A DNA stretch of 52,199 nt, taken from the IMG/VR virus record IMGVR_UViG_3300046011_003401, positions 1 to 52,199 of that record. One strand, written 5' to 3'. Shown in pieces: positions 5,545 to 49,441 of this stretch (position 1 is the stretch's first letter; the number at the start of each line of letters is the position of its first letter). The stretch is from a virus. The notes below the pieces were generated by a model. The model searched no databases, had not been told where the DNA came from, and saw only the letters and a program-made list of their open reading frames with translations. The position numbers were made by a program, and so were the translations under genes.

Positions 5545-6003
5545 ATGGCAACTAATACGAACAAGCGTGTAGCCATTAAATGGATACGAGATGGGGCTAA
5601 AGCAGCTTATATAAAGCTACCTAATTGTTATATTTGTGGAACTACACAAGATTTAGAATTGCATCATACACACGGACTTACCAATCTTTTTGAGAAGTGG
5701 GCTAGGGAAAAGAACTATAGTATAGAAACAGATGACGATGTTTTAGCAATACGGGAAGAGTTTATCAATACACATCATAAAGAGTTGTATGAAGACGTAT
5801 TCACGTTATGCAATAAGCATCACCAACAGCTGCATAAAATCTATGGTAAATCGCCTGCGCTTATTACTGCTTCCAAGCAAGGTATGTGGGTCGAAAACCA
5901 GAAAAGGAAGTTAAATGGAATGGAATCCGTTAAATTGGTTTCAGAAGAACAACCCAGCACAGGAGATAATCGCTCAAAACAGTGGTTCTCTAATTTCTTC
6001 TGA
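5545..6003 (+). CDS. HNH endonuclease-like protein
   Basis: This 152-aa protein carries an HNH/zinc site: CYIC (C28, C31), LELHHTHGL with H40-H41, and LCNKHHQQLH with C89 and H92/H93/H97. HNH proteins next to terminase and portal genes are widespread in HK97-type phages, where they stimulate or assist terminase cutting at the packaging site; this is known for several such phages and inferred here. It opens a new block downstream of promoter P1. Its last 89 bp overlap the portal gene in a different frame. A central charged insertion (about residues 50-80) separates the CxxC/HH half from the second half. Confidence 0.8.
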   Translation: MATNTNKRVAIKWIRDGAKAAYIKLPNCYICGTTQDLELHHTHGLTNLFEKWAREKNYSIETDDDVLAIREEFINTHHKELYEDVFTLCNKHHQQLHKIYGKSPALITASKQGMWVENQKRKLNGMESVKLVSEEQPSTGDNRSKQWFSNFF

Positions 6004-43940: not shown

Positions 43941-44198
43941 ATGGAAAAGTTATTTATGTTATTTGCTGATGGTATTGCCAGCGGTGGACCGGCAGCAATT
44001 ATACTAATATTACTAGGGGTTATAGGAATATTAGTTTGGGATAGATTGGGTTTAATTAGATCTATGAAAGAAAACTCCTCACTATATCGTAGTGATATTA
44101 ATAGGGTTATTGATAAATATCAAGAAGGTCAAATTAATGTTATTCAAGCATTAAATGACATTAAACTAATCTTGGTAAAGGTAGAGGCTAAAGTATGA
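43941..44198 (+). CDS. Single-pass membrane protein with coiled coil (85 aa)
   Basis: Residues about 15-36 (GGPAAIILILLGVIGILVWD) form one membrane helix. The following SDINRVIDKYQEGQINVIQA region is helical and could coil. The layout matches small holin-like or antiholin-like proteins but also simple membrane anchors. The stop overlaps the start of the double-PAS gene (ATGA at 44195), so the two are probably made together. Whether it is a partner of the PAS protein or a lysis protein cannot be told from sequence; it lies about 4 kb from the lysis cassette. The ribosome site AGGG is weak. Confidence 0.7.
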   Translation: MEKLFMLFADGIASGGPAAIILILLGVIGILVWDRLGLIRSMKENSSLYRSDINRVIDKYQEGQINVIQALNDIKLILVKVEAKV

Positions 44199-45133
44199 GC
44201 CCCCTAGAAAGTTTATCTAACCTAATATTCTGGAGGAAGTCGTATAAAGATGCAATAGCCACTGATCTAAGTTCATTAGACTCTATTAATTCCAGATTAG
44301 AGGAGGTGGTATTAGATACTTCCTCTATTTCTAAACGTATTATTCGTAAACTCGAAAATAAAATTGAGTATATTCAACAGGAACTTTCTGAAAGGGAGGA
44401 ACTACTAGGTCATGTATTTTCAGGTGTATCTGACGTATTAATATTAAAAGATGGTGAAGGTCGTTGGAAACTTGTAAACTCTTATGGCAAAAAAGTATTT
44501 GGTATAGAACATAACGAATATAAAAACAAAACAGATTTTGAGATGTGTGATGTATCTCCAAGATTTAAAGAAATGTTTGAGTTATGTATAAAAACAGATA
44601 TTCAAGCATGGGAAACAAAAGAAATTATTGAAACTGAAGAACGTTCTGTAGATTCCTTTGGTGAAGAAGTAGTTTTTGATGTGATTAAAACCCCAATATT
44701 TAATGAAGACGGTTCCAGAAAGCATCTATTAGTTCATGGTAAAAATGTAACTGAAGAATTAGCTAATACAAAGCATATACGTATGCTAATGAATGCTTTA
44801 AATAAAGCATCAGATAGTATAACTGTTACAGACCATAATCATAATACTATTTATGCTAATGAAGCATTTTTAGACTTATATGGTTATAGCTTGGAAGAAA
44901 TATTAAATAAACCTAGAAAAATAGTAGCATCTGGTCAGACTCCAAATGAAACATATATTAGTATGTTTGAAAAAATTACCAAAGCTTTACCCTGGGCTGG
45001 TGAAATGATAAATAAAACTAAGTCTGGTGAAATATTGAATGAATTGATTTCAATAACTCCGGTTTTAAATGGGAAACCATATCCAATATACTATATTGCG
45101 GTAAATAGACCCCTCAATAAGGAAAATATATGA
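44195..45133 (+). CDS. Double-PAS sensory protein without output domain (312 aa)
   Basis: Layout: an N-terminal helix/coiled coil (about residues 20-68), PAS 1 (about 70-190: LLGHVFSGVSDVLILKDGEG, then KLVNSYGKKVFGIEHNEYKN) and PAS 2 with PAC (about 195-308: NALNKASDSITVTDHNHNTI, YANEAFLDLYGYSLEEILNK, LPWAGEMINKTKSGE, PYPIYYIAVNRPL). PAS domains bind small ligands, haem or flavin, or mediate dimerisation. No histidine kinase, GGDEF, EAL or HTH region is present, and the protein ends right after PAS 2. It is coupled to the membrane protein upstream and the Cys-rich protein downstream by ATGA overlaps. A sensor or adaptor role is inferred. Phage PAS proteins are uncommon. Confidence 0.88.
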   Translation: MSPLESLSNLIFWRKSYKDAIATDLSSLDSINSRLEEVVLDTSSISKRIIRKLENKIEYIQQELSEREELLGHVFSGVSDVLILKDGEGRWKLVNSYGKKVFGIEHNEYKNKTDFEMCDVSPRFKEMFELCIKTDIQAWETKEIIETEERSVDSFGEEVVFDVIKTPIFNEDGSRKHLLVHGKNVTEELANTKHIRMLMNALNKASDSITVTDHNHNTIYANEAFLDLYGYSLEEILNKPRKIVASGQTPNETYISMFEKITKALPWAGEMINKTKSGEILNELISITPVLNGKPYPIYYIAVNRPLNKENI

Positions 45134-45540
45134 GTGAAGTAGAACAATGCCCAACCGCAACAATGTATCCAGAAGTTAATTTAGCTAATCATTTAGCTTG
45201 TATAAAATTAGCTAATCTAGGTCCTGCAGATCCAAGACAACCAAGTGTTTTGTTTTGGGGTGATAAAATGATAAAGTGGCAAGTAAAAGAAGGTGAGGCT
45301 AGAACTCGTCTTTGTATGAATTGCGAATATTATGATAATTCACCAGAAAATCTACTATGTGTAGCTACTGGCCCTGGTGGACAACTAAAAGCATCTGCAT
45401 TACCAGTAGTTCCTAAATGGGCTGATATTGATGGTATGCCTTCTGCAGTTTGTACTAGATGGGGTATTACTTGTTCTGCTCTACGTACTTGTGATGATTG
45501 GGATCCAATTGTAGAAGAAGAAATAGATGAAGAGGATTAA
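45130..45540 (+). CDS. Cysteine-rich phage protein (136 aa)
   Basis: Eight cysteines: C7, C24, C62, C65 (LCMNCEYYDN), C77, C108, C115 and C121 (VCTRWGITCSALRTCDDW). The CSAxRTCDxW motif and the CxxC pair recur in phage proteins of unknown function. The arrangement suggests a metal or iron-sulfur site, with some likeness to HiPIP-like cysteine spacing, but binding is not shown. The end is acidic (VEEEIDEED). It overlaps the PAS gene by 4 bp, so it may be the partner or output of that sensor. A redox-linked role is speculation. Confidence 0.7.
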   Translation: MSEVEQCPTATMYPEVNLANHLACIKLANLGPADPRQPSVLFWGDKMIKWQVKEGEARTRLCMNCEYYDNSPENLLCVATGPGGQLKASALPVVPKWADIDGMPSAVCTRWGITCSALRTCDDWDPIVEEEIDEED

Positions 45541-45925: not shown

Positions 45926-47515
45926 ATGACTGATTTCATTTCACTTCCACCAGATGGTGTAGGTAAAAAAGTAAGACATAGAGTATTAGCGGATTTAATT
46001 GTTATTAATCAATCAACTCCTCCACTAATCTATTCGACCATAGTAGGGTCAACATCTTTAGCAACTGCTATTATAGATAGTATTGATACTGATGTAAAAG
46101 GTAGATTAAACTATTACTTATCTGATATAACGGGCACATTTATAGCTGGCGAAGTATTAAGAAATACTACTAATACCGTTAACTATGCTACTATCTCAAC
46201 AGTAACTCCCAATATTTATACACCTCAAGTTAATATATCTGATGCTAATAATCCCTCTCATACTCAAAAGGTAGATAAACGAGGAGCAGCAGTAGCTACA
46301 TTCCCAGAAGGTACTCCACAATTTGATTCTTTTGGTCGTATGCAAGTATCACAAATGTTGGCTGTTGGTGAATACTACCATGTAGGTGCTGATCAGCCTG
46401 GTAAGTATTGGAATGATACTAATGGCACTGGTTCTATAACCTATAATCAAGCATCGAGTTCTATTAAATATAGTGCTGGTACAGCCTCTGGTGATAGAGC
46501 CTATAGAACTACTAATCAATATCACCCATATAAACCAGCAACATCTAATTTAATTTATACATCAGTAGCTTGTGGAGACGCAGGTAAAACTAATGTAATA
46601 CGTGAGTGGGGTTATTTCGATGACCTTAATGGTTTTGGGTTTAGATTAAATGGTACTACCCTACAAGTATTTATTCGTTCAGATGTTACTGGAAGTGTTG
46701 TAGATACCATAGTAAACCAAGCTAACTGGAATAATAATATTCTAGATAATAGTACAGCGTCAGACTTTGTTTTAAATCTAACTAAACTAAATATATTTTG
46801 GATGGATTTTGAATGGATGGGTGCAGGTACCATTCGTCTAGGTGTAGTAACTCCTGATGGAAGACGTATTACTTGTCATACTTTTGAAAATACTAATAAT
46901 GTTACTTTACCATTTATGCGTACGGCTACATTGCCACTACGTTGGGGTATAAAAAATACTGGCATATCTGCTAGTACATCTGAAATGAGTGTAGTTGCTG
47001 GTGCAGTATTTACTGAATCTGCCGATGTTCAATACTCTGGTACTTTAATTCATACAAGCCCACCAAATCCGATTGTATTAGTAAATTCTGATGTATATAG
47101 ACCTTTCCTATCTTTTAGACCAAAACTAACTGTTGGTGGATATCCTAATAGAATTATTGGTATACACGAGGCTTTTGATTGGGCAAGTATTGGTGATTCA
47201 GCAGTTCATATTGGAATATTCGTAAACCCTAGCTCACTAACAGGCGCTATTTGGTCTGATTCTATAGTTCCTACAAGTATGTTACAAGTTGATAGATCTG
47301 CTAGTGAAATGTCTCAAGACGGCACTTTAATAGAATCATTCCTTGTTGGTCCTAATAGTGCTGATAGAGTTACATTGGGTGATAGGTTAGAAAAATCTTT
47401 TGAACTACCAGCAGATGGTGTAACTCAACCAGTATTTGTATTTGCTGCTAAAGTACTAAAAGCTGATACAGCGGTTAGTTTCTTTTATACAAAATATTGG
47501 AAAGAGATTAGATAA
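45926..47515 (+). CDS. Putative virion structural protein (529 aa)
   Basis: Begins TDFISLPPDGVGKKVRHRVL and contains SDANNPSHTQKVDKRGAAVA, FDSFGRMQVSQMLAVGEYYH and a jelly-roll-like middle (VACGDAGKTNVIREWGYFDD, then GFGFRLNGTTLQVFIRSDVT). The FDSFGRMRVS-type motif is common in large virion proteins of aquatic phages. It ends VSFFYTKYWKEIR. Likely a tail or fibre-associated protein. AAGGAAAG precedes the start and the stop overlaps the next gene's start (TAATG). Confidence 0.72.
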   Translation: MTDFISLPPDGVGKKVRHRVLADLIVINQSTPPLIYSTIVGSTSLATAIIDSIDTDVKGRLNYYLSDITGTFIAGEVLRNTTNTVNYATISTVTPNIYTPQVNISDANNPSHTQKVDKRGAAVATFPEGTPQFDSFGRMQVSQMLAVGEYYHVGADQPGKYWNDTNGTGSITYNQASSSIKYSAGTASGDRAYRTTNQYHPYKPATSNLIYTSVACGDAGKTNVIREWGYFDDLNGFGFRLNGTTLQVFIRSDVTGSVVDTIVNQANWNNNILDNSTASDFVLNLTKLNIFWMDFEWMGAGTIRLGVVTPDGRRITCHTFENTNNVTLPFMRTATLPLRWGIKNTGISASTSEMSVVAGAVFTESADVQYSGTLIHTSPPNPIVLVNSDVYRPFLSFRPKLTVGGYPNRIIGIHEAFDWASIGDSAVHIGIFVNPSSLTGAIWSDSIVPTSMLQVDRSASEMSQDGTLIESFLVGPNSADRVTLGDRLEKSFELPADGVTQPVFVFAAKVLKADTAVSFFYTKYWKEIR

Positions 47516-48024
47516 TGTTAGCTAATATATTTGCTTTTTGGGACGATTTAATCGACCCGTTAAAATGTACTTTTGATGGGGAAAATAAGCTAATATATAT
47601 AAATCCAACTGTAACTACTCTAAATGTAAAAGAAGATATTTATTCAGCATTTAAACGCTGGATGTTTAGAGATACTAATGCTAAATATGAAATGGGTATC
47701 CGCTCTATTGGTGGAGACCCAATTTCAGTTGGTGTAACTGCTGGTGAGATGTACTTCTTAATTAATGGTTGGCAGGTCTATACAGACCATAATGTTAAAG
47801 TTAATGGTGTACTATATCATGATGACGGGTTGGATGTTTATATTGGTCCAGGTGGGGTTACTTCTGTAGTATCTAGTATTGTAACTGGATATGTGGTTTC
47901 TACACCGCAACAAATTGCAACAGCAGTTTGGACAGAACCTACTAGTACAGGTACTGAGGGCTCTTTTGGATATCATTTAACTAATAAAGTACTTACTGTT
48001 ATTAAATTCTTAGGGCTTAAATAA
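47515..48024 (+). CDS. Conserved phage virion-associated protein (169 aa)
   Basis: The core FDGENKLIYINPTVTTLNVK, EDIYSAFKRWMFRDTNAKYE, MGIRSIGGDPISVGVTAGEM and YFLINGWQVYT is a widespread phage pattern (DIYSAxKxW...IGGDP...FLxNGW) next to structural genes. The C terminus (ATAVWTEPTSTGTEGSFGYH, then LTNKVLTVIKFLGLK) is a short helix that may attach to the tail. Function unknown; virion role inferred. TAATG overlap with both neighbours. Confidence 0.75.
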   Translation: MLANIFAFWDDLIDPLKCTFDGENKLIYINPTVTTLNVKEDIYSAFKRWMFRDTNAKYEMGIRSIGGDPISVGVTAGEMYFLINGWQVYTDHNVKVNGVLYHDDGLDVYIGPGGVTSVVSSIVTGYVVSTPQQIATAVWTEPTSTGTEGSFGYHLTNKVLTVIKFLGLK

Positions 48025-48374
48025 TGCTTTCAACAATTTTATTTAGTTTAACTGTAGGTCAACTACTTACATATGGGTTTTTATTAGCAATAGTTATATT
48101 TATTATTGCTATCATATTAATTTCTAGAGATAGCAGAGTTAAATATAGATTAATTGACTTAATCAGTAATCCAGATGGTACAGCCTCATTAACTAGATTA
48201 CTTCAATTATCTGCTGGTGTTACTGGAACTTGGGTTGTAATTAAGCTAACTCTTGCCAACACTTTAACTGTAGATATATTTGGTGTATATTTAGCTGCTA
48301 TGGGTATTTCTGAAGGCTTTACTAAGTGGATTCAATCTAAAAAAGGTACTAATAATGATACTACTATTTCTTAA
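48024..48374 (+). CDS. Holin candidate (116 aa)
   Basis: Hydrophobic segments at about residues 13-33 (LTYGFLLAIVIFIIAIILIS), 65-82 (GVTGTWVVIKLTLANTLT) and 84-96 (IFGVYLAAMGISE). The C terminus is charged (KWIQSKKGTNN). It immediately precedes the spanin genes and the M15 peptidase, the normal position of a holin, which forms the timed hole in the inner membrane. No family-level match can be named, so the call rests on size, topology and position. It overlaps the i-spanin gene by 20 bp. Confidence 0.65.
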   Translation: MLSTILFSLTVGQLLTYGFLLAIVIFIIAIILISRDSRVKYRLIDLISNPDGTASLTRLLQLSAGVTGTWVVIKLTLANTLTVDIFGVYLAAMGISEGFTKWIQSKKGTNNDTTIS

Positions 48375-48723
48375 AACATATTTTAGACAAATAGCTTTTA
48401 TAATTATTTTAGGTATTGCTGTATTAGCAATATATAATAAAGGTTACCAATCTGGATATAATAATAGAGTAATACACTATGAAAAAATCCGTATCGAGGA
48501 TAGAAATATTTTAGTTGGTAAAATAGATAATCTAGAAGCATTAAGTATTGGTATGTCTAAAGATGTAGTTCGTAAACAAGTTAAATTAAGTAAAGACTTA
48601 AATAATCTTACTTTAGATATAAAAAATAATAAATCATTTGTTATAAAAAATGGTGAGTGTATCCCATCAGAATATTTTATAAATACATTTAATTCCGTTA
48701 TTGATAGAGCGAATCAAAAATGA
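48355..48723 (+). CDS. Inner-membrane spanin (Rz-like)
   Basis: 122 aa with one N-terminal membrane helix (about residues 11-29: QIAFIIILGIAVLAIYN) and a periplasmic, mostly helical charged domain (IRIEDRNILVGKIDNLEALS, DVVRKQVKLSKDLNNLTLDI). The next gene encodes a small lipoprotein, overlapping by 4 bp, as in Rz/Rz1 pairs. Such spanin complexes join inner and outer membrane and fuse them at the end of lysis. No sequence family is claimed; topology and gene pair support it. Cys and Pro near the end (GECIPSEYF) may aid dimerisation. Confidence 0.78.
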   Translation: MILLFLKTYFRQIAFIIILGIAVLAIYNKGYQSGYNNRVIHYEKIRIEDRNILVGKIDNLEALSIGMSKDVVRKQVKLSKDLNNLTLDIKNNKSFVIKNGECIPSEYFINTFNSVIDRANQK

Positions 48724-49016
48724 AAAATACTATAATATTTATACTTTTATTATCTTTAACGGCTTGTGGAACTTTTTTTCAAAAACAAGATTTGCCAATA
48801 ATTTTAACCGAGCAAAATACAGAGTATTTAGTACCTGAGGTTAATATTGACCAATATTTATTACTAGAATGTGAGCAATTAAATCCTTTAATTAAAACGG
48901 ATAATTTTACTGATATTTTATTAACTACTAAGGATAATGCAGCTTTATATACTTCTTGTAGAGATAAACACTCTGCATTAGTAAAAATATTAAAATCTTC
49001 ATTAAATATTAAATGA
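48720..49016 (+). CDS. Outer-membrane spanin lipoprotein (Rz1-like)
   Basis: 98 aa with a lipoprotein signal: basic start MKN, hydrophobic IIFILLLSL and lipobox LTAC with the lipidated Cys at position 16. The mature part starts GTFFQKQDLPIILTEQNTEY. Overlap with the i-spanin gene (ATGA) and placement just before the endolysin support the call. It would insert in the inner leaflet of the outer membrane and bind the i-spanin. A Gram-negative host is implied. A further Cys pair (about C51 and C79) could form a disulfide. Confidence 0.78.
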   Translation: MKNTIIFILLLSLTACGTFFQKQDLPIILTEQNTEYLVPEVNIDQYLLLECEQLNPLIKTDNFTDILLTTKDNAALYTSCRDKHSALVKILKSSLNIK

Positions 49017-49441
49017 GTAACTTTACAATAGAAGAACTCTGTGCATCTGAGTCAGCAACTAGATTAGGTATTAAAAATATACCTACTGCTAATTCACTAG
49101 TTAACTTAAATAGTTTAATAGTGCAATTAGAGAAAGTAAGAGAGATACTTGGTAATAAATCTATACATATTAATAGTGGATATAGAAGTCCTACTCTTAA
49201 TAGATTTATAGGTGGTTCTAATACATCTGCACATTGTTTTGGTTATGCGGCGGACTTTACTTGTAAAGACTTTGGTACACCAAAACAAATAGTACAAACT
49301 ATAAAAGATAGTGGTTTAAAATATGACCAACTAATCTATGAAGGCACTTGGGTTCATATCAGTTTTGATCCAAATAAAATGCGCCAACAAACATTAACTG
49401 CAACATTTTCAAAAGGGAAAGCGTCTTACTCTAATTTTTAG
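49013..49441 (+). CDS. Endolysin, M15-family peptidase
   Basis: 142 aa, M15_3-type zinc peptidase: HINSGYRSPTLNRFIGGSN (about residues 52-70), TSAHCFGYAADF with zinc ligands H74 and D81, and GTWVHISFD with H115. The family cuts D-Ala or L-Ala-D-Glu bonds in peptidoglycan stem peptides (as in phage T5 and VanX/VanY-like enzymes). There is no signal peptide, so it needs the holin for access. It overlaps the o-spanin gene by 4 bp and ends the lysis cassette. Full length for the family with all metal ligands present. Confidence 0.9.
   Translation: MSNFTIEELCASESATRLGIKNIPTANSLVNLNSLIVQLEKVREILGNKSIHINSGYRSPTLNRFIGGSNTSAHCFGYAADFTCKDFGTPKQIVQTIKDSGLKYDQLIYEGTWVHISFDPNKMRQQTLTATFSKGKASYSNF

Follow-up and report, generated by a model that had tools for sequence, protein, structure and literature searches.

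Only a small number of phages are known to sense and act on the state of an infected host; one of them is reportedly Vibrio phage VP882, with its PAS protein VqmA. Among cellular proteins, the closest described counterparts of the phage protein discussed here are NifL of Azotobacter vinelandii (PAS1-PAS2-GHKL), whose tandem PAS domains have no kinase activity and which regulates by protein contact, and the FAD-PAS redox sensors Aer and MmoS, which have a signalling or kinase output and retain the F-alpha tryptophan (PMC10468136). The phage protein also has tandem PAS domains, the second of which finds its best match in NifL PAS1 (2gj3) and falls in the same subfamily as the PAS domains of Aer and MmoS. 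Unlike NifL, it has no GHKL domain and no NifA partner. It is encoded directly behind a small membrane protein, and the two genes form a conserved phage gene pair that probably represents a small sensing unit, so far uncharacterised. Searches of the literature on phage PAS proteins and on HiPIP-like phage proteins found nothing specific.

The window, the whole stretch of DNA analysed, is an IMG/VR virus record of 52,199 nt from a tailed phage with a siphovirus layout (terminase, portal, protease-capsid, head-tail adaptor, major tail and minor tail genes). Three plus-strand ORFs, at 43941-44198, 44195-45133 and 45130-45540, encode a membrane protein, a PAS protein and a Cys-rich protein and are joined by two 4-base ATGA overlaps, in agreement with the preliminary description. 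The first overlap, at 44195-44198, is kept in the closest relative (locus L002 of record G001) at 5971-5974. Counted from the ORF list, about 8 of some 45 gene junctions in the window have ATGA overlaps, so they reflect dense packing and are by themselves no mark of a functional unit. The preliminary description regarded the trio as a sensing unit. The part of that claim concerning the membrane and PAS proteins stood, since the two genes are conserved together in five records and the PAS protein has no output domain, whereas the Cys-rich partner had to be given up, as discussed below.

The membrane partner (43941-44198) has 85 residues and a single hydrophobic stretch of 19 residues (14-32; mean hydropathy 2.41), as expected of the single-pass protein that had been described, and its charge pattern is that of an N-out/C-in protein. 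The most conserved part is the cytoplasmic amphipathic tail, in which the motif KYQEGQI-x-V-x-QA is invariant in 5/5 aligned sequences. A profile of the membrane protein matches all five records with E values of 6e-36 to 1e-44, the profile having been built from these same sequences. Across the two lineages described below, the membrane proteins are 30-38% identical.

The PAS protein (44195-45133) consists of a long N-terminal helix or coiled coil (residues 3 to ~75), PAS1 (76-188) and PAS2 (206-293). Both PAS segments exceed the Pfam cut-offs (two stretches each for PAS_4, 58.3 bits against a cut-off of 23.1, and PAS_9, 60.2 bits against 27), which upholds the earlier reading of two PAS domains in this protein. 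Beyond the PAS stretches, Pfam recognises nothing in this protein, which thus has no output domain, as first described, and the 52-kb window record as a whole contains neither a HATPase_c nor a GGDEF domain. Between the PAS gene of the window and the L002 copy, 58 codon differences are synonymous and 16 are non-synonymous, indicating that the gene is under purifying selection. In an AlphaFold model of the protein (mean pLDDT 40) only the N-terminal helix is confidently predicted, and outside this helix the model is too poor for a fold search.

The closest matches of PAS2 are NifL (2gj3, E 8e-17), MmoS (3ewk, E 6e-16) and Aer (8dik, E 3e-7). The alignment with NifL PAS1 is gap-free, with 34 of 105 residues identical, and allows the published FAD contacts of NifL (PMC8063818, PMC12540587) to be mapped directly onto the phage domain. 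Thr41, Tyr83 and Asn102 are retained, the last of these, a flavin-ring contact, being matched by Asn273 in PAS2. Five other contacts are altered (Ser39 to Thr, Trp87 to Phe, Glu70 to Arg, Tyr110 to Leu and His133 to Asn). Trp87 is the F-alpha tryptophan, on which FAD binding primarily depends according to PMC10468136, and its equivalent is Phe258 in both the window and L002. Judged from sequence, PAS2 is thus a descendant of the NifL/MmoS/Aer FAD-PAS subfamily for which FAD binding is not predicted, because this tryptophan is replaced. A flavin redox sensor, considered on account of the NifL-like PAS2, was set aside for the same reason.

The pair of adjacent genes is present in five phage records, the window included, from at least two lineages. 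In the closest relative, L002, both proteins are 95% identical to those of the window. Searches with the membrane protein led to three further phage records, namely contigs of 80 kb, 55 kb and 345 kb, the last from a jumbo phage. A scan of 2.9 million viral contigs for the KYQEGQI motif returned eleven stretches, four of which encode the small membrane protein with the PAS gene adjacent (4/4); in IMG/VR, four records besides the window were found to encode such a KYQEGQI protein, and in every one the gene directly behind it is of the coiled-coil/PAS kind. When about 85,000 bacterial and archaeal genomes were scanned in this way, no KYQEGQI membrane protein was found. Looser motifs, applied to both the viral and the genome collections, gave chance matches only, besides the known four; such scans detect motif-bearing relatives, and motif-less ones would escape them. 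Among 50,697 annotated phage records, no relatives of either protein were found, generic PAS matches excepted. Since three of the five known pair records come from related large phages, few independent events are represented.

The genomes that bear the pair are of at least two unrelated types. The 80-kb, 55-kb and 345-kb phages have TROVE, HD-like or SLOG-like neighbours in common (the HD-like and SLOG-like genes were recognised by eye, from their sequence motifs) and on this basis appear to be one lineage, the siphovirus of the window and G001 forming the other. In two of the large phages the pair stands by itself between genes of the opposite strand, with no recognisable structural block. 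The PAS proteins of the two lineages are 18-24% identical and the gene order is nonetheless kept; six coiled-coil positions (I21, L25, L35, T42, K52 and L64) are invariant. In the products of the three large-phage PAS genes, Pfam detects a PAS domain clearly in one and weakly in two, and weak NCBIfam PAS-kinase matches are also found. PAS2 is missing from the large-phage copies, in contrast to those of the window type, implying that the core function, whatever its nature, would be carried by the first PAS domain and the coiled coil.

Several other genes were observed in pair-bearing phages. One pair-bearing phage, G002 (IMGVR_UViG_3300012005_000004), encodes a 706-aa PAS-PAS-GGDEF-EAL protein (L189:2248-4368) with intact GGDEF and EAL motifs, which is predicted to be a phage-borne cyclic-di-GMP enzyme, and a second, weak GGDEF fragment lies at the start of this contig. 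In the 345-kb phage, about 2 kb separate the pair from a GHKL-ATPase gene (HATPase_c_3; L014:1-1974, minus strand), of a kind not present in the window. The gene that immediately follows the pair in the 80-kb phage (L008:6966-9335) has a 789-aa product containing a domain of glycosyl hydrolase family 16, and a bacterial sugar transferase (Bac_transf) gene flanked by SLOG-like and HD-like genes occurs by the pair at L015:2391-3065 (minus strand).

How might the two proteins work together? The conserved amphipathic tail of the membrane protein and the long N-terminal helix of the PAS protein lead us to infer that these helices meet and that the state of the PAS domain is passed on through them. 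The PAS protein would be cytosolic, and the coiled coil formed by its N-terminal helix would dock on the cytoplasmic KYQEGQI-x-V-x-QA tail of its dedicated single-pass partner. A change in the PAS domain, caused by a ligand or by the redox or metabolic condition of the host during infection, would be relayed along the helix, with the membrane protein as the output that stands in for a kinase or cyclase. Physical contact, the direction of signalling, the ligand and the target of the membrane protein are all putative elements of this scheme. We tentatively favour such a two-gene phage-borne sensing unit, a PAS switch held by and signalling via its membrane partner, and rate its chance of being correct a little short of even. 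In its favour are the gene order kept between the lineages, the invariant tail motif and coiled-coil positions, the mostly synonymous codon differences and the lack of HATPase_c and GGDEF domains in the window. Against it stand the small number of independent events, the poor model of the PAS protein apart from its N-terminal helix, the Pfam-weak PAS domain in two of the three large-phage copies, the loss in large phages of PAS2, which is the part nearest to known sensors, and the fact that the protein is not predicted to bind FAD, which would have been the obvious signal. The broader proposition, that this is an undescribed signalling unit in which an output-less cytosolic PAS sensor works via its own single-pass membrane effector and which is common to unrelated phages including a jumbo phage, is possible and, in our estimation, doubtful.

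PAS domains commonly dimerise. The PAS domains of this protein, if of cellular origin, could therefore pair at the membrane with the PAS domain of a host sensor kinase, chemoreceptor or cyclic-di-GMP enzyme and block or redirect it. The closeness of PAS2 to the cellular sensors NifL, MmoS and Aer is consistent with such a decoy or antagonist, and the full PAS-PAS-GGDEF-EAL protein of one pair-bearing phage suggests that at least one such phage may act on host signalling. However, the copies of the other lineage are without PAS2, and a decoy would not need a conserved membrane partner of its own, although an anchor is conceivable. We consider antagonism of host sensors unlikely.

The pair could instead time lysis, with a holin-like or antiholin-like membrane protein whose action is delayed or triggered by the PAS protein. 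The cytosolic RIII protein, which acts on the T4 holin, provides a model for a PAS protein that acts on a holin-like partner. In the window, the pair is situated about 3 kb upstream of a lysis cassette composed of a phrog_1322 membrane protein, an Rz-like spanin (a weak match, E 0.003), a small lipoprotein and an M15 peptidase (48024-49441), so the late-region location given in the preliminary description is correct. Three of the membrane proteins weakly match the bacteriocin/BhlA-type phrog_1625 (E 0.002-0.03), and the layout is similar, an N-terminal membrane span followed by a charged coil; BhlA/UviB-type holin-like proteins (PF10960, phrog_1625) are likewise small, with an N-terminal span and a C-terminal charged helix. 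Yet a profile comparison of the membrane protein of the pair with four BhlA-family proteins did not reach significance: it gave a probability of 11% over ten columns only, and 1 of 100 decoys scored higher. The BhlA proteins examined are also without the KYQEGQI-x-V-x-QA tail. Moreover, several genes, including a relative of virion structural proteins (45926-47515), intervene between the pair and the cassette, and the window encodes another candidate membrane protein, next to its endolysin. Around the pair in the three distant records, the genes that could be identified are of the HD-like, SLOG-like, TROVE and GH16 kinds, none of them a lysis gene. A role in lysis, which had been suggested from position, is not supported beyond that position, which is confined to one lineage and not conserved, and we regard a lysis-timing device as improbable.

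The late location in the window, between phrog_1084/collagen-like genes and the virion structural protein homologue, would also suit minor components of the virion or of its entry machinery, in which the PAS fold would be structural. The isolation of the pair between opposite-strand genes in two large phages argues against a virion or DNA-ejection component, and we find this reading quite improbable.

The third gene of the window (45130-45540) encodes a protein with eight cysteines (7, 24, 62, 65, 77, 108, 115 and 121) and a motif that reads CSALRTCDDW, both as first described. It is homologous to a family over a domain that contains C62xxC65, C108, C115, R119, C121 and W124; among 35 aligned members, C62, C65, C108, C115 and C121 are invariant and C77 is not always present. 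Relatives occur in seven public phage records, where they are annotated as 'high potential iron-sulfur protein', and in at least 581 IMG/VR stretches from uncultured phages. The cysteine order (CxxC...C...GYC-like) resembles that of HiPIP (PF01355), but the family differs in having the additional invariant C115 and C121 and an inconstant C77. PF01355 has no match in the window, and its best E value is 0.061, in one of seven family members. In a fold search with the model of the Cys-rich protein (pLDDT 82.5), HiPIP entries account for three of the six best PDB matches, with non-significant E values of 0.64 or worse. This weak evidence from sequence and model makes the protein probably HiPIP-like.

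Members of this family are stand-alone proteins or domains fused to other proteins, and their genes adjoin terminase, PhoH, spanin or capsid genes. The fusion partners, named by eye, include a portal protein with the domain at its C-terminus (L032:3597-5369) and head-protease-like proteins (L040:3975-5375, L051, L073 and others), with further fusions at L084 and L092. Such fusions, of which we found no description, suggest a widespread role of the domain in phage head assembly.

Relatives of the membrane or PAS protein are encoded in none of the 80 Cys-rich loci examined. In L002, the PAS gene is immediately followed by the next virion gene, and a Cys-rich gene is absent from this site; a profile search of the 47.5 kb of G001 detected none either, although this contig stops before the lysis cassette and the gene could lie beyond. 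The other pair-bearing records have no Cys-rich gene. The three-gene order was therefore found once only, whereas the two-gene order recurs, and the trio as a unit was rejected because the third gene is absent from this site in a 95%-identical relative and its family lives elsewhere without PAS genes. By these comparisons the Cys-rich gene is best described as a bystander, a common phage gene beside the pair. A three-gene redox relay, from a possibly Fe-S-containing Cys-rich protein through the PAS protein to the membrane protein, would fit the overlapping genes, the weak HiPIP likeness and the resemblance of PAS2 to FAD-PAS domains, but it is largely refuted already, and highly improbable, given the missing third gene, the association of its family (more than 500 loci) with packaging and capsid genes and the lack of the FAD tryptophan in PAS2.

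The pair of membrane and PAS proteins is missing from every annotated phage record that was searched. If it is movable as well as conserved, uncultured phages would carry small sensing devices that operate without kinases or transcription factors.
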